From Dacryopinax spathularia (lineage: Eukaryota; Basidiomycota; Dacrymycetes; Dacrymycetales; Dacrymycetaceae): DNA of 64,000 nt. Numbering within the stretch: position 1 is the stretch's first letter; each line of letters opens with the position of its first letter. Shown piece by piece: positions 11,945 through 49,175 of this stretch. The notes under the pieces were generated by a model. It worked only from the letters and a program-made list of their open reading frames with translations, was not told the origin of the DNA and did not search any database. The position numbers were made by a program, and so were the translations under genes. The DNA lies in assembly GCA_037974965.1 (NCBI GenBank), contig JBBPFI010000001.1, forward strand, positions 992,001 to 1,056,000, given 5' to 3'.

Positions 11945-14089
11945 TCAGACGACACCCCACGCCCCCGCCCGCCTCACGCCCTCAACAAGCTGGTCCACAT
12001 TCCCGAGCCACATGCCCAATCTCTCCTTCTTCTCCTCCGTACTCCTCACCACTCTCTCCTCACCCTCACCCTCACCCGTCCTTTCTCTTCCTCCATCTCC
12101 CAGAACGCTGCTCTGTCCCAGAAGCCTGCTGTCGGACAGGAGTCTGCTCTCTCCCAGGTTGGACGAATCCTGAGGAGCACCACTGTCGTCCATAGGCAAG
12201 TCCAGCCCCAACCCCCTCATTCCAGGGCTGGAATCGCGCGACGAACTCTTGCTCGGCGTCGTGAGCGAAAAACCCGGCACGCTCCTCGTCCTCCCATGTC
12301 CTTTCATCCCCTTCCTCTCAGCACCGCCATCACCAGCAACATCACCAGCAGCACCGCCTTCGCTGTCCCTCTGCACTCTCCTCTGTCCAGCGGCCGAAGA
12401 GCGGTCCTTACTCGGAGTAGTTACCTCCCCTTCCCGTACTTGGAACGGACTCCCCTCCCTCGACAACGAGGTAGAAGGCGTAGCCGTGCCCAATCCAGAT
12501 CCAGATCCAGACCCGGAGCCGGGCCGACGAGGCGTACCCATCCCAATCCCGATCCTAGCGACCTTAACCCGCTTCGGCGTAGAGGGCACAAAAGCCTCTA
12601 ATTGCGCTTCGGCTTCTTGTTTTAGCCTTGCTATTGCCGCTGTGGGCGGGACGCTTTGGCCTCTTTGGTGGTGCTGCTGCTGCAGTTTGATGGGGCTGCC
12701 GGGTTGTCTAGGAAGAGGTGGGCAGGCGGGGAGGGAGGAGGTCGTTTCGAGTGATGTGGTTGATGAGGCGCTGGAGGAACGGGACGATGTGAGGGGCGGG
12801 ACGGCGTGCATGTCTGGAACGGGGGTTTGGGGCCTTGAAGGGCCTGAGGCCGGGGAGCGCGGGGAATGAGGGGTGAGTGGTGAGGCTCGGCGGCTTGGTT
12901 GGGCGGAGGAGGGGGCGAGGAAGGGGGAAGGAGGGGTTTGAGATCTTGCTGGGAGGCCTTCTGCTGGTTGGGTGGGCGAGACGGAGTGCGTGCTTGCGGG
13001 GGACGCGGAGGCAGTGTGTATGCTGCCGGTCGAAGGCGAGTGTTGGCCGGACGGAGCCGGAGTGGTAGAAGGAGCGGTTTCCGGTAAGAGATAGAAATAC
13101 AAAAACTCCAAGCACCGCATCCTCACTTCCCTCGGTACACCCGCCCTCTTCAAAGTACGTACGACACCTTCAAGTCCGCCTGCAGATTCGAACGCCCGAA
13201 GTGCGCGAGGTGAGTCGACTAGGATCGCTAATAGCGTGTCCAGCGCTGCTAGGGCTAGGGAGGAGAGGCCGGCTTGCGCTGATGCTGATGCGGAGGGTGA
13301 AGGAGGAGGGAGAGATGAAGGGGGCTCGAGAGGCGAGAGTGGGACGGGAGAAGGCGCAGTCGCCGGGTTTGGGTAGTTGGAGGAAGGTGTCCGGCTGCCG
13401 ACTCCTGCTGCGCTTGAGGGTGCTAGTGTTGAAGCTGTCGAGATGGTCGATACGGAGCTCGCTCCGAGTGCCGAGCCTGAGCTTGAGCTGGCATGATGCG
13501 GCCTCGACGCCAGAAGTATGTCGAGGAGCAGCTGAAGGGGCACCTTTCGACCGAGGTAGGCCTTACTCGGTTCGTGGAGGAAACAGCATCCCTGTAAGAG
13601 CTGAAGGGCACGGGCTAGGGAAGAGGTGGTACTTGCTGCGTCGGGTTCTGGTGAGCGGTGCGAGCGGTGGGAGGAGCGGGATGGGGTCGGTGGGGTGGAG
13701 AGGGACGGGGTAGTTGAAAGAGAGGGGGAGGAGAGGTTCTCGAGTTGGGGTAGGGTTTGGGTGAGGAACGGTAGGAGTCGGGTTGCAACTATTGCAGTCT
13801 CAGAACCATCATCACGAAGGCAAGAACGGGAGGGACGCACTGTTGGTTTCGAACGCATCCTGCAACCTCCTGAACTCCTCTAACCGCTTTCCGTCCCCAT
13901 TGCCAGGCGCACCATCCAGACAAACCTCAGCGAGAACCCTTTCAAGGGCTGCTAATGCTCTTGACTTGCGCGTCTGCGAACTTCGATACGAGGTGAGCTG
14001 AGCGCAGTATAGTCAGTGAATTACTCTGTTATCATGTACAGGACGGGGTGACATACATCATCGAGCGCATTCAGGATCGTTTGCTCCAT
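11945..14089 (-). CDS. cdc14: Cell division control protein 14 (SIN component)
   Basis: This is homologous to S. pombe Cdc14, the non-catalytic partner of the Sid1 kinase in the septation initiation network; it is not the Cdc14 phosphatase. There are three exons (14057-14089, 13841-13997, 11945-13788), about 677 aa. The family signatures are LQDAFETNIATRLLPFLTQ near residue 60, ILVDSPRALRAFESAGGLE, then MRCLEFLYFYLLPE, and the C-terminal KERLGMWLGNVDQLVEG. Two large Ser/Pro-rich inserts, one of about 100 residues and one of over 300 between LLPE and the C-terminal block, make it more than twice the length of the yeast protein. The inserts hold many SP/TP sites. The gene is divergent from the FAH-fold gene. 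Confidence 0.9.
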
Positions 14090-16285: not shown

Positions 16286-17831
16286 CTAGAAAAGCATCGA
16301 CGCAGCCACCTCCACGTTCCCCCCCGCCACCTCGAGCAGCCTGATCGCTTCTTCTCTCGAGACGCCCATCTCCACCAGAACGTTGATCGATGCCTCTGGG
16401 AAGCTTGACGTCGGTTGTGTTTGCTGCCGAGGCTGCGGGGTGCCGCCTAGTCTTTGACCGCCGCCGACCGTTGGCGTTGCGCGGGCTGAGTTGCTCGCTG
16501 GCGGTGCACCGAGCTTTTGACCCCCACCGGGGAATTGGGGCTTTTGTTGTTGACCCGCGCTGCCGGTCGATGCCCCAGGCTGCCTGGAGCCCGAGGACGG
16601 TCCCGCCCCCTCCTGATCGCCCAACTCCACAGGATCATATGTATTCCTCGCATGTTCCGGCAGCTCGTGTTCCGGCAAGAACGGAACTTCCCTCCCCTGA
16701 ATCCGGAGTACGTTCTTCTCCAGGTCGATTATCGCTTGGTGCGCCTTGAGCATATCCAGTCCGAAAAGCAGGTCCACATCGCGTCCCTCCATGACCGTAA
16801 ACGCGCACGGGAGGTAGAGGTCGGCTACGCGCATAGGGGCGCTGTGTACTCGGCCGAGGATACGCGCTGTGCCGACGCCTTTTGCGATCCCGGACCAGCG
16901 CTTGTCGATCAGACGCATTATTCCGGTCTTTTCGGCCGTTTCGGGGGAGATGATGGTCGATTGGGCGCCGCTGTCGACAAAAGCGAGGACCTTGACGCCA
17001 TTGACTTCCACAGGAATACTGCATAGAGAACATAATTAGCACCTCCTGCCTTGTAGCGCTTGGAAATGAGGAGGGACGCACTAGAGCATAGTAACCCTCC
17101 CGAACGCCTCGGGCGTATACTCATACGCATGCGCCAAGTTCTCAAGCACCGCTTCCTGCCGAATGGCCTCCTCGATCCTCTTCTGCGCCTCGATATCGAA
17201 CGGGTCTGCGTTCAGAGCGGCCATATTCCGCTGGAGCTCCATCTCGGCTTGGCGCTGGCGCTGCATGTGCGTCGAGAGGAGCTGGGCAAAGCGAGCCGTG
17301 TCGCCTTCCTCGGCAGCGCGGGCGAGCTCGGGTTGCGTCTGTCGCTTGGTATTAGCATACATTCTGATTGTTCGATTGGGGGGGGGAGTACGCACCTCAC
17401 GAAGCTGCTCCATCAAGCCCGGGTTGCCCAGCGCCTGCAGCCTCATCATCTCCGCATCTTGCTCCGCCGACCTGCGTACAAATCCGTAAGCACCCATCTC
17501 CCACCCCCCTGATCCAAAGCGCACTCACATGCCTTCCGCCGAAACCCGGCGGCGGATAAGGAGCATCACGTCGTCCGGCAAGCCATAGTCGCTCACCGTC
17601 TTCTTAGGGTCAGTGAGGTCTTTGCCTTCGTACGAGATGTTTTGTTCTGCTGGGGGGATGCCGGACTGTCATTATGATTAGGTTGGTATGAGCATGTGAG
17701 AGGAGGAAGGGGGAATGGAAAGGGGGACGCACGGCGACCTCGAGCAGGGCCATTATGTTCTCCAGCTCCATCTGAGGGTCTATCTCGATCGTGTATGTCT
17801 GACCGAGGTCAGTCGCGAACGTGAGCTGCAT
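16286..17831 (-). CDS. DDI1: DNA damage-inducible protein 1 (ubiquitin shuttle protease)
   Basis: A shuttle factor that brings ubiquitylated proteins to the proteasome and cleaves some of them. There are five exons (17733-17831, 17529-17665, 17396-17471, 17082-17338, 16286-17018), about 433 aa. Domains in order: ubiquitin-like fold (from MQLTFATDLGQTYTIEI, split by intron 1), a helical HDD region, a retropepsin-like dimerising aspartyl protease with the intact catalytic DSGAQST motif and flap, a Pro/Gln/Ser-rich linker, and a C-terminal UBA domain (VLVEMGVSREEAIRLLEVAGG). The protease is a host gene domesticated long ago, not a viral insertion. A longer start 31 codons upstream is possible, but the UBL begins exactly at the chosen Met. 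Confidence 0.95.
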
Positions 17832-45351: not shown

Positions 45352-46439
45352 ATGGCAAGTCAAGAATATCCCAGAGCGTGGCGCCAATCGTCCTCTGGCC
45401 AGCCCATTCCTACCAACGTATATCCTCCACGTCAGCCGCCATATCATCCGGGATCTTATGTCCCCTTGCCTGCTCTCTCTCGCGTCAACGGACCTCAGCC
45501 GTCGTATTACGCGTCATCGCCATATCCTCCTTCGCTCCCACATCCGGCTACGTATTTGGCGAGCCCTGCCACCCTCAACCAAGTAGCACCTCAGAATACT
45601 AGGCGCAGCCAGCCATGGTCACCCGGTATGCCTCGGCCGCCAGGCCTGCCATACATCGTAGGCGGATCGACTCTCTCCTCTCAAGGCTACTCGACGGTCG
45701 CCTGCGAGATGGGTCGCGTCTACCGGATGCCTGATGGTCGAGCTGCTTACTACGTCGGAACGGCAGGGCCCAGCGAAGCAGCAGCAGCTCGACGAGCTTA
45801 TCGCGAGAGGCACCCGGGACCACCCCAGCCCACGCCTGATATTGAGCGGACTGACGGAAGGCCACCCCCTTCGACAGGCAGAAACGGCGGGGCATCTTAC
45901 CCTGCTGGCTCTAGTTCCCACCGTGGGCCAGGACTTTCAGGTCAACCACCACCACCTCAAACGACTCCTAGGCCTACTGCACCGAGACTTAGGCTCGATC
46001 TGCTTAGCGAGACTGAACAGGAGGCAGTCATGGAGGACGTTCGCACGATGAAAACTGAGACCTATTATGTCTTTCTAGGCAAGTGCCAACCTTCCTTTGG
46101 TGACTGCCACTCATGTCCACTTAGGGATTCCGACGGTGTTCACTCCAGAAGAGCTCAAGCGGGCCGTCAAGCGGCAAATGTACGTGCGTCACTTTACAGT
46201 CACGCTGATCTCACATCCGCGTAGGTTGAAGCACCATCCTGATAAAGGAGGCCTCAAAGCAAACTTTTATCGTCTTCAGCGGGCATCAAATATTCTTTCT
46301 GACCGCGAGAAGCGTGCTTGGTGAGCTGACCCAATCTTTCTGCCTGTCTGGTTGGCTCAGAATGAACAGGTATGATGCGCTGCTGAGCTATTATAAGTAC
46401 GAGCAGTGGCGACGACAGACGCAGGCGCGATCGCGATGA
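45352..46439 (+). CDS. J-domain (DnaJ) protein with Pro-rich N-terminus
   Basis: There are four exons (45352-46078, 46125-46179, 46225-46320, 46370-46439), 315 aa. The first 225 residues are a low-complexity region rich in Pro, Tyr, Ser and Arg. The J domain is at the C-terminus: ETYYVFLGIPTVFTPEELKR, then LKHHPDKGG with the essential HPD, then FYRLQRASNILSDREKRAWY. It therefore should stimulate an Hsp70. There is no Gly/Phe or Cys-repeat region, so it is class C. No signal or membrane helix is seen. Intron 1 (46079-46124) uses a GC donor, required to keep the J-domain frame. The next gene also ends in an LKHHPDKGG J domain, so a local duplication of the domain is likely. Confidence 0.88.
46079..46124 (+). 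other. GC-AG intron in the J-domain gene
   Basis: This 46-nt intron begins GCAAGT and ends ACTTAG. The alternative GT four bases downstream puts the J domain out of frame. This is the second GCAAGT donor in the window. Confidence 0.7.
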
Positions 46440-47189: not shown

Positions 47190-49175
47190 ATGAGCCGTAC
47201 TCATACCGTCACAATGTTACCTCAAGTCCCCATGTTCAGCGCTGAGGAACAGGCATTCATCGACAAGATTCTGAAGAGCGTCGATGCTGGTGAAGAGCAG
47301 TTCATCGAGGGGAATGTGGCGAAGAAGATCTTCAAAGCATCTCTGCCGCCAGAAACGCTCGCACAGATATGGCACATTGCGGACAAAGGCGACAAGGGCT
47401 TCTTGACGAAGCTCGACTTGGGCGTCGCACTCCGCCTTATCAGCCATGCGCAATTCGGTGTGCAAGTACACCCGCGCTTCATGCATATACGTGCGTTGCT
47501 CTTCTTCCAGTCTTACTTCGTGTTGCTAAGAATAGTTGCAGCCGTTCCGCCTCCTACCCTCCCGTACTTCGAGCTAAGTCGCAAGCGAGCACATACACCT
47601 AAAGCGCATACGAGGACGAGATCAGCGTCTCCGGCGGCTGGACCAAGCAATCAAGCGCAAATCTCGCGAGAGGAATGTGCGGAGTCAGCGAGGTTGTTTC
47701 TGGATAATAACCCGGTCAATGGGCGAGTCAAGGGTGCGTGCAACTGTTTAGCCCCCATGCATATACGCTTACATTCTCACAGGATCAGTTGTGCGAGAGC
47801 TCTTCATGCACTCTGGTCTATCGACGGAAGTGCTGTACGAGATTTGGGATCTTGTCGACTATGACTATCTCGGCTCTCTCGACCTTACCCAATTCATCCT
47901 CGCCATGCATTTTATCCGGGAGAAGACTCTACGACCCACTTACGCTCTCCCTCGAACAATCCCACCAGCCCTATACAACCTCGCCCTCCCCAGCCGGCCC
48001 ATGCCATCATCCGCTACCAAGCGATGGGCAATATCCGCCGAAGCAAAGCGTCTAGCAGACGAGCAGTTCGACTACTGGGACCCCGTCTGCAGAGGCTACC
48101 TACAACGAGATCTAGTTCTCATCATCCTCATCGGCTATGCGCGGCAGTTCAACCTCCCAGAACCAGAAGCGGTCGCCGTCCAGATCTGGAGCCTGCTCGA
48201 TCCCGAGATACCCGATCAGCTCGATAGGGACGGGTTTGCAGTCGCGCTCAAGATGCTGGACGACACGGCTGATGGCAAGCCGCTCCCTTCGTCCATGCCG
48301 AAAACGTACATCCCACCAAACTGGAGGAGAGAGAGACATCATGGTGCCAAGAGTACGTACTGTTCGCCACTTGTACCAGCACCGCCTGACCTTCGCCGTC
48401 AGATCCTTTCACGCCTGCCATGGAGAAAGAGCGCAAACTACGCCGCATGTCCAACCTGGACGCCGATACCATCCGCGCCCGGAATCAGCGGCTACTCGAT
48501 ATCGAGCGTGCCATCCGAGAGTTCCGAAAGGAGCAAGAGCACGGCGAGCGCATGCGTCAGAAGCTTGCACGTGAAGCGCAGGAAGATGAGCAGCACAGAC
48601 AGGAAGGACTCGCCGAAGAGGCACGTAAGAGGGAGGAAGAAGCTCGCAGGCGGGAAGAGGCCGAGGCTGAGGCTGCGCGTAGGCGACAGGAGGAGCTGGA
48701 CGCTGCGCGAAAAGCGCGGGAGCAGGCTGCGCGTAGGGAGAGGGAGGAGGTGCTGCGCCGTCAGCGGGAAGCTGAGCGTGCGCGTCAGGAGAGAGAGAAG
48801 GCGAGGCAGGAACGGGCGAGGAGGGAGGGACCGAGGAGACGGGATTCTGCGCCTGCGGAGGATGAGGCCACGCGTCGTTCTCGTAGGGAGAGAGAGGAGA
48901 GGGAGGAGCGCGAAGCCGAGGCGCAGCAGAAGGCTCGAGAGGAACGGCGCGCCTATGCAAAGCTGGAACAGAACCGCTGGAAGGACTACTACAAGATCCT
49001 TGGTGTTGGGAAGGAGGCTGACGAGGCGGAGATCAAGCGTGCCCATCGGCGGGAGAGTCTGAAGCATCACCCGGATAAGGGAGGTGACGAGGATACGTTC
49101 TTGCTCATCCAGGAGGCGAGGGAGATTTTGTGCAACGCTAGCCTGAGGCAGCGATATGATTCCCTCCGGGCATGA
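47190..49175 (+). CDS. Three-EH-domain, coiled-coil, J-domain fusion protein
   Basis: There are four exons (47190-47490, 47542-47733, 47783-48352, 48403-49175), 611 aa. Three EH domains: EH1 about residues 15-95 (LAQIWHIADKGDKGFLTKLD), EH2 about 142-228 (LYEIWDLVDYDYLGSLDLTQ), EH3 about 248-335 (AVQIWSLLDPEIPDQLDRDG). An NPF tripeptide at 355-357, the usual EH ligand, is formed across intron 3. Residues 361-540 are a very charged Glu/Arg/Gln coiled coil. Residues 542-611 are a complete J domain (DYYKILGVGKEADEAEIKRA, then HHPDKGGDE) ending at the C-terminus. Coiled coil and J domain are in one uninterrupted exon, and the exon 3-4 join is in phase. The N-terminal layout matches Eps15/Ede1 endocytic scaffolds, whose C-terminus normally carries UBA or UIM motifs instead. 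I infer an endocytic factor that recruits Hsp70. Confidence 0.88.

Follow-up and report, generated by a model that had tools for sequence, protein, structure and literature searches.

The closest described counterparts of the gene analyzed here fall into two groups, endocytic scaffolds and J proteins. The first includes Ede1, EdeA and Eps15, which carry three N-terminal EH domains and a helical region further on, members of this family ending in a UBA in fungi and in a UIM in animals. According to the available passages of one report, Ent1/2 and Yap1801/2 are among the adaptors with which the EH repeats of yeast Ede1 interact, and Ede1 condensation needs a proline/glutamine-rich region in addition to a coiled coil (PMC9064294). 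Among the J proteins, auxilin brings Hsc70 to clathrin coats and has a J domain that a long loop extends to ~100 residues, compared with ~70, as described in excerpts of PMC4436892. Auxilin, GAK and Swa2 share with the protein discussed below the presence of an HPD J domain and an endocytic targeting module on one chain, and class C J proteins (DNAJC) share with it a J domain unaccompanied by other DnaJ-family Pfam domains, their non-J regions being used for targeting. RME-8/DNAJC13 provides a further parallel as a membrane-traffic J protein that is not auxilin; it is endosomal, acts on clathrin and retromer and, to our knowledge, is very large and lacks EH domains. In our judgement, the uncoating of clathrin is better explained than the disassembly of the scaffolds that form early in endocytosis, Ede1/Eps15 networks among them. 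No description of EH and J domains in one protein was found in the literature searched, whose coverage was partial. In the retrieved portions of papers naming both domains, the two are mentioned apart, mostly in reference titles, and the intersectin EH domains and auxilin/DNAJC6 belong to separate proteins in the accessible part of PMC8967901.

Both sets of features are encoded at 47190-49175 on the forward strand of the 64-kb window (the whole stretch of DNA that was analyzed). A profile search of the spliced product returned Pfam EH at 5.3e-28, with two stretches passing, and Pfam DnaJ at 2.5e-17, both above their cut-offs, bearing out the proposal of an earlier note on this DNA that the two domains would be found together in one product. 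The reading preferred here, which is held with moderate confidence, is that of one intact gene coding for a class C J protein, in which an array of three Ede1/Eps15-type EH domains would provide targeting, a stiff and charged single alpha-helix (SAH) would act as a spacer, and a DnaJ-type J domain would recruit Hsp70. This reading is built on the observed domain content and J-domain type, the open frame, the splice signals and the chemistry of the helix, and the mechanism is what we infer from them. Outside cellular eukaryotes, a search of viral contigs with the 611-aa form of the protein gave one pattern match and no relative, and a search of bacterial and archaeal genome contigs with the EH part gave 99 pattern matches and no relative.

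The count of three EH domains made in the earlier note holds for two of them by the profile and for the third by pairwise comparison. EH1 (47235-47456, +) matches Pfam EH at 1.6e-9 (38.0 bits, for a cut-off of 22 bits) and two Eps15 EH chains in phmmer (1.5e-6 and 2.4e-6). EH2 (47661-47979, +), which is split by intron 2, scores 8.7e-14 (51.7 bits) and finds its best phmmer match in the first EH domain of intersectin-1 (2e-10). EH3 (48022-48327, +) alone falls below the Pfam cut-off (17.7 bits), though phmmer matches it to the second EH domains of Eps15 (2.3e-9) and intersectin-1 (8.6e-9), and these matches extend over almost all of it, the proline-rich tail at its C terminus included. Additionally, the seven best Foldseek matches of an AlphaFold2 model of exon 3 are EH chains (probability 0.97-1.00), at E values of 0.014 or worse and with a mean pLDDT of 58. 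AlphaFold2 was given single sequences and modeled the EH3 exon and the J part with low confidence; all Foldseek matches stayed above an E value of 0.001. On the combined sequence and model comparisons, we regard EH3 as a genuine EH domain that has diverged. At position -4 relative to the conserved Trp, Leu is found in EH1 and EH2 and Ala in EH3; this position and the Trp itself are NPF-pocket residues of EH domains. A pattern search of residues 1-340 found no canonical 12-residue EF calcium loop in the three EH domains, and calcium binding by them may be weak or lost. Position 12 of the second EF loops of EH1, EH2 and EH3 (47427-48232 region, exons 1 and 3) is occupied by Asp, Gln and Gly, respectively.

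The J domain (48981-49166, +) has the HPD motif that had been read in it (49068-49076) and, taken alone, matches Pfam DnaJ at 7.3e-19, covering the 63-position model from end to end over 59 residues. Its best phmmer match in the PDB is 1bqz DNAJ, which we take to be the E. coli protein (1.2e-11; 29 of 61 residues identical), human Hsp40 and DNAJA1 being other near relatives of solved structure by sequence, and the 59 PDB sequences with E ≤ 0.001 include none named auxilin. Likewise, the best Foldseek match of the low-confidence J model is the Sis1 J domain (probability 1.00, E 0.013), and auxilin received a probability of 0.06 (E 7.8) from the same model. Judged by sequence and predicted fold, the domain is DnaJ/Sis1-like and not auxilin-like. 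A Pfam scan at E ≤ 0.1 found no zinc-finger or C-terminal DnaJ family, and the NCBIfam models that responded to the protein were of the bacterial DnaJ type and far under their cut-offs. Having an HPD J domain without further DnaJ-family domains, the protein would belong to class C, where it differs in having EH domains as the targeting module.

By analogy, the protein could work like auxilin in principle, a targeting module being coupled to a J domain, but it is not placed in the auxilin family. Whereas auxilin has the loop-extended kind of J domain, the one found here is short and of the DnaJ/Sis1 kind; in addition, Pfam gave no further domain such as PTEN or TPR, nor could an established clathrin-binding module be recognized. 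A pattern search of the protein for DPF/DPW-type, DLL, FxDxF, WxxF and PWxxW motifs found no match. The only clathrin-box-like motif is LLDIE, which is treated as a candidate, such matches being present in 35% of 3,000 shuffled proteins.

The 190-residue linker between the NPF motif that follows EH3 (see below) and the J domain had been described as a long charged coiled coil, a description that the sequence pattern did not confirm. Its hydrophobic a/d pattern (1.68) is no better than that of 300 shuffles (1.78 ± 0.17), and its 116-residue charged core consists to 72% of E, R, K, D and Q and contains 4% hydrophobics. Basic-to-acidic i+4 pairs in the core number 20, a count reached by none of 2,000 shuffles (11.7 ± 2.3), and like-charge i+4 pairs are depleted (9 vs 23.3 ± 3.6 in shuffles). 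Acidic-to-basic i+4 pairs (15 vs 11.7, reached by 11% of shuffles) and i+3 pairs of both kinds (13 and 15 vs 11.8) show no clear excess, so the case for a single alpha-helix is made by the other measures. For the segment 48420-49172, AlphaFold2 predicts a continuous helix of 122 residues (48462-48827, +; residues 15-136 of the segment), which would be ~18 nm long at 0.15 nm per residue and has pLDDT blocks of 92-98 over residues 21-130. This is followed by a break (GPRRRDSAPAED; 48828-48863, +) and by a second charged helix of 46 residues and ~7 nm (48864-49001, +; residues 149-194) that runs into the J domain.

By its composition and predicted fold, the linker looks like a SAH rod and not like a classic coiled coil, and the predicted helix fits the single alpha-helices described in available passages of PMC5812594 and PMC4571873. 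Like the SAH domains of, e.g., INCENP and myosin 10, it is charge-rich, has few hydrophobics and is predicted to form a long continuous helix; it differs from them in that only one of the four charge-pair spacings is clearly in excess. The naming problem has a precedent in the INCENP 'coil', which, according to excerpts of PMC4571873, was first called a coiled coil and later reassigned as a single alpha-helix. Compared with solved structures, the linker gave one weak match, to ATP synthase subunit b (0.0035), which was taken as a compositional resemblance.

These properties bear on the best-surviving alternative, which is that the protein is an Ede1/Eps15 scaffold with a secondary J domain, self-associating via its helix or via EH-NPF contacts, organizing endocytic sites and using Hsp70 to tune its own assembly. 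The three N-terminal EH domains have the Ede1/Eps15 layout, and at the start of the linker an amphipathic segment (~48486-48575) has hydrophobic residues at five of eight a/d positions in a 28-residue window and, judged from this pattern, could form a short coil or dimerise. Furthermore, the joining of exons 3 and 4 produces an NPF motif soon after EH3 (NPFTP; 48352 joined to 48403-48410, the joined codon being that of Asn), which could permit EH-NPF self-association; NPF is present in 1.9% of 3,000 shuffled proteins, a figure that applies to a single motif picked after looking. The motif is an EH ligand motif lying inside the same protein as the EH domains. Against a scaffold stands the main charged region, which is SAH-like and not heptad-like, and a sequence-pattern search revealed no oligomerising coiled coil of the Ede1 type. 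Apart from EH and DnaJ, Pfam at E ≤ 0.1 returned two EF-hand families, both below threshold, so that neither UBA nor UIM was found, and a UIM-like pattern had no match. The product is also short, at ~600 aa vs the 1,258 given for Aspergillus fumigatus EdeA in the available part of PMC11237632, and no counterpart was evident of the proline/glutamine-rich region that Ede1 condensation needs according to the same passages of PMC9064294. For its tail, this protein has a SAH-like rod and a J domain, and its likeness to Ede1/Eps15 is confined to the N-terminal half. Taken together, the scaffold alternative is given a rather low probability, and the evidence speaks more for a targeted Hsp70 co-chaperone than for a scaffold that carries a J domain as well.

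As a targeted co-chaperone, the protein would most likely act in the following way. EH1 and EH2 would bind NPF motifs of endocytic adaptors, and the charged rod, with helices of ~18 nm and ~7 nm on either side of the break, would keep the J domain away from the EH-NPF site and set the distance to Hsp70. The J domain would then place Hsp70-ATP on a segment that the bound assembly exposes, and the assembly would in turn be remodeled or dismantled. NPF binding, location at endocytic sites, the identity of the Hsp70 partner and that of the substrate, which may be an adaptor network, clathrin or an Ede1-like condensate, are presumed in this scheme. The earlier note had proposed that coat-scaffold binding and Hsp70-driven disassembly could be coupled in one chain. 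The part that stands is the EH array with its own Hsp70 recruiter; the words 'coat scaffold' are harder to maintain for a protein in which no Ede1-type coiled coil, UBA or auxilin-type J domain was found and whose LLDIE motif is of a kind common in shuffled sequences.

A more specific version of the co-chaperone reading can be put forward tentatively. The protein could be a dedicated Hsp70 recruiter of a non-auxilin kind, one whose EH domains read networks of NPF adaptors and which dissolves early scaffolds, i.e., adaptor or Ede1-type condensates, instead of or besides clathrin lattices, the rod serving as a ruler or spring between the adaptor layer and the chaperone. A natural EH-J fusion would be genetic evidence for Hsp70 acting on EH/NPF networks, would offer a single protein in which an HPD mutation could probe this action, and would show that a J protein has acquired a target by taking over a module that reads adaptors.

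Alternatively, the same architecture could belong to a co-chaperone of endosomes or actin patches, located like RME-8 or like Pan1/End3, whose role would be to remodel NPF adaptors and would be unrelated to clathrin uncoating. Intersectin, REPS1 and EHD proteins have EH domains as well, the best match of EH2 is an intersectin domain (see above), no convincing clathrin-binding motif is present and the J domain is non-auxilin, all of which would suit such a location. However, three N-terminal EH domains are the number of Ede1/Eps15, whereas Pan1 and intersectin have two each, and this alternative is considered unlikely.

All readings of the protein as one chain depend on the gene model. The earlier note had described a spliced frame of 611 aa; it is indeed open and encodes both EH and DnaJ domains when translated with introns at 47460-47510, 47734-47782 and 48353-48402, the coordinates of the first two having been inferred from the stated protein length. 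Its first intron is uncertain. Five choices were tried (47458-47541, 47458-47535, 47460-47510, 47466-47510 and none), and all keep the frame, giving proteins of 600, 602, 611, 613 and 628 (unspliced) aa; other acceptors also keep a frame. The intron 1 donor of the 611-aa model, GTGCAA, is poor, having no G at position 5. As a matter of judgement, an 84-nt intron at 47458-47541 (+; GTGTGC...TTGCAG), giving 600 aa, is favored because this stretch scores as non-coding (-0.01 in frame) and has a CTAAG branch-like site. The choice alters only the linker between EH1 and EH2 and leaves the domain content unaffected.

In the favored model, all on the forward strand, exon 1 runs from the ATG at 47190 to 47457 (to 47459 in the 611-aa model), exon 2 (47542-47733) holds the EH1-EH2 linker and the start of EH2 in a frame without a stop, and intron 2 (47734-47782; 49 nt, GTGCGT...CACAG) separates the two parts of EH2, which are in frame once it is spliced out. 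Exon 3 (47783-48352) carries the rest of EH2 and the whole of EH3. The 50-nt intron 3 (48353-48402) joins the EH exons to exon 4 (48403-49175), which has no internal stop and encodes NPFTP, a short amphipathic stretch, the charged helix, the J domain and the terminal stop. The charged helix and the J domain are therefore on one exon, to which the EH3 exon is joined in frame, as had been claimed. Coding scores, trained on eight Pfam-matched ORFs that themselves score +0.03 to +0.27, place exons 1, 3 and 4 (+0.33, +0.20 and +0.11) within or above the training range, the charged part of exon 4 scoring +0.07 and the J part +0.22. Exon 2 scores weakly (+0.02; synonymous part -0.03). Synonymous-codon scores are small throughout the gene, and in the charged part a wrong frame is slightly ahead (+0.06 vs +0.03).

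Of the three introns, only intron 3 follows a strict consensus, with a strong GTACGT donor, a CTGAC branch-like site and a CAG acceptor. When the gene was simulated 500 times with an order-1 Markov model, at least one such intron arose in 8.4% of the runs. The strict consensus suits this genome, since the window contains 14 and 21 strict-consensus introns on its two strands, compared with a mean of 4.15 in 20 simulations. The sequence fits badly with two transcripts, one ending before 48353 and one starting after 48403, given a canonical junction intron and an EH frame that stays open up to 49060. A single fused product with both EH and J domains is very probable; the fusion is well supported by the sequence, the spliced product being a prediction. 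The converse, that the model fuses an EH gene with a helix-J gene or with an overlapping transcript starting at the ATG of 48420 or 48447, has little probability, for although these in-frame ATGs lie near the start of exon 4 (whose frame opens at 48390), the helix and J domain are complete within that exon and a J-only isoform could arise from an internal promoter, the EH and J parts have no intergenic space between them, a frame-keeping strict-consensus intron falls exactly at their junction, and retention of this intron would add ~236 out-of-frame residues to the EH frame before its first stop at 49060-49062, out of frame with the J domain.

Immediately upstream on the same strand lies a gene for a second J-domain protein (45352-46439, +; 315 aa in one splice model), with a proline/serine-rich N terminus and, at the C terminus, an HPD-containing J domain; one intron (46079-46124) may be of the GC-AG type. 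The two J domains are identical at 27 of 60 residues (45%). Origin of the EH-linked J domain as a copy of its tandem neighbor was considered and rejected: since 1bqz DNAJ is no less close (29 of 61), no special kinship is seen and a duplication is not claimed. Judging by its short introns and by the genes named by Pfam among the 20 window ORFs scanned, which include RRN3, eIF3d, glycoside hydrolase 15, a PP2C phosphatase and an acyl-CoA dehydrogenase, the window is a piece of a fungal chromosome, which gives the impression of a basidiomycete. Elsewhere in it, an ORF at 16289-17035 (-) has an aspartyl protease domain (2e-42) and a UBA-like match just below its cut-off, a layout that we take to be that of the Ddi1 family, and a 644-aa open frame at 11948-13879 (-) matches a CDC14 SIN component at 1.6e-26.
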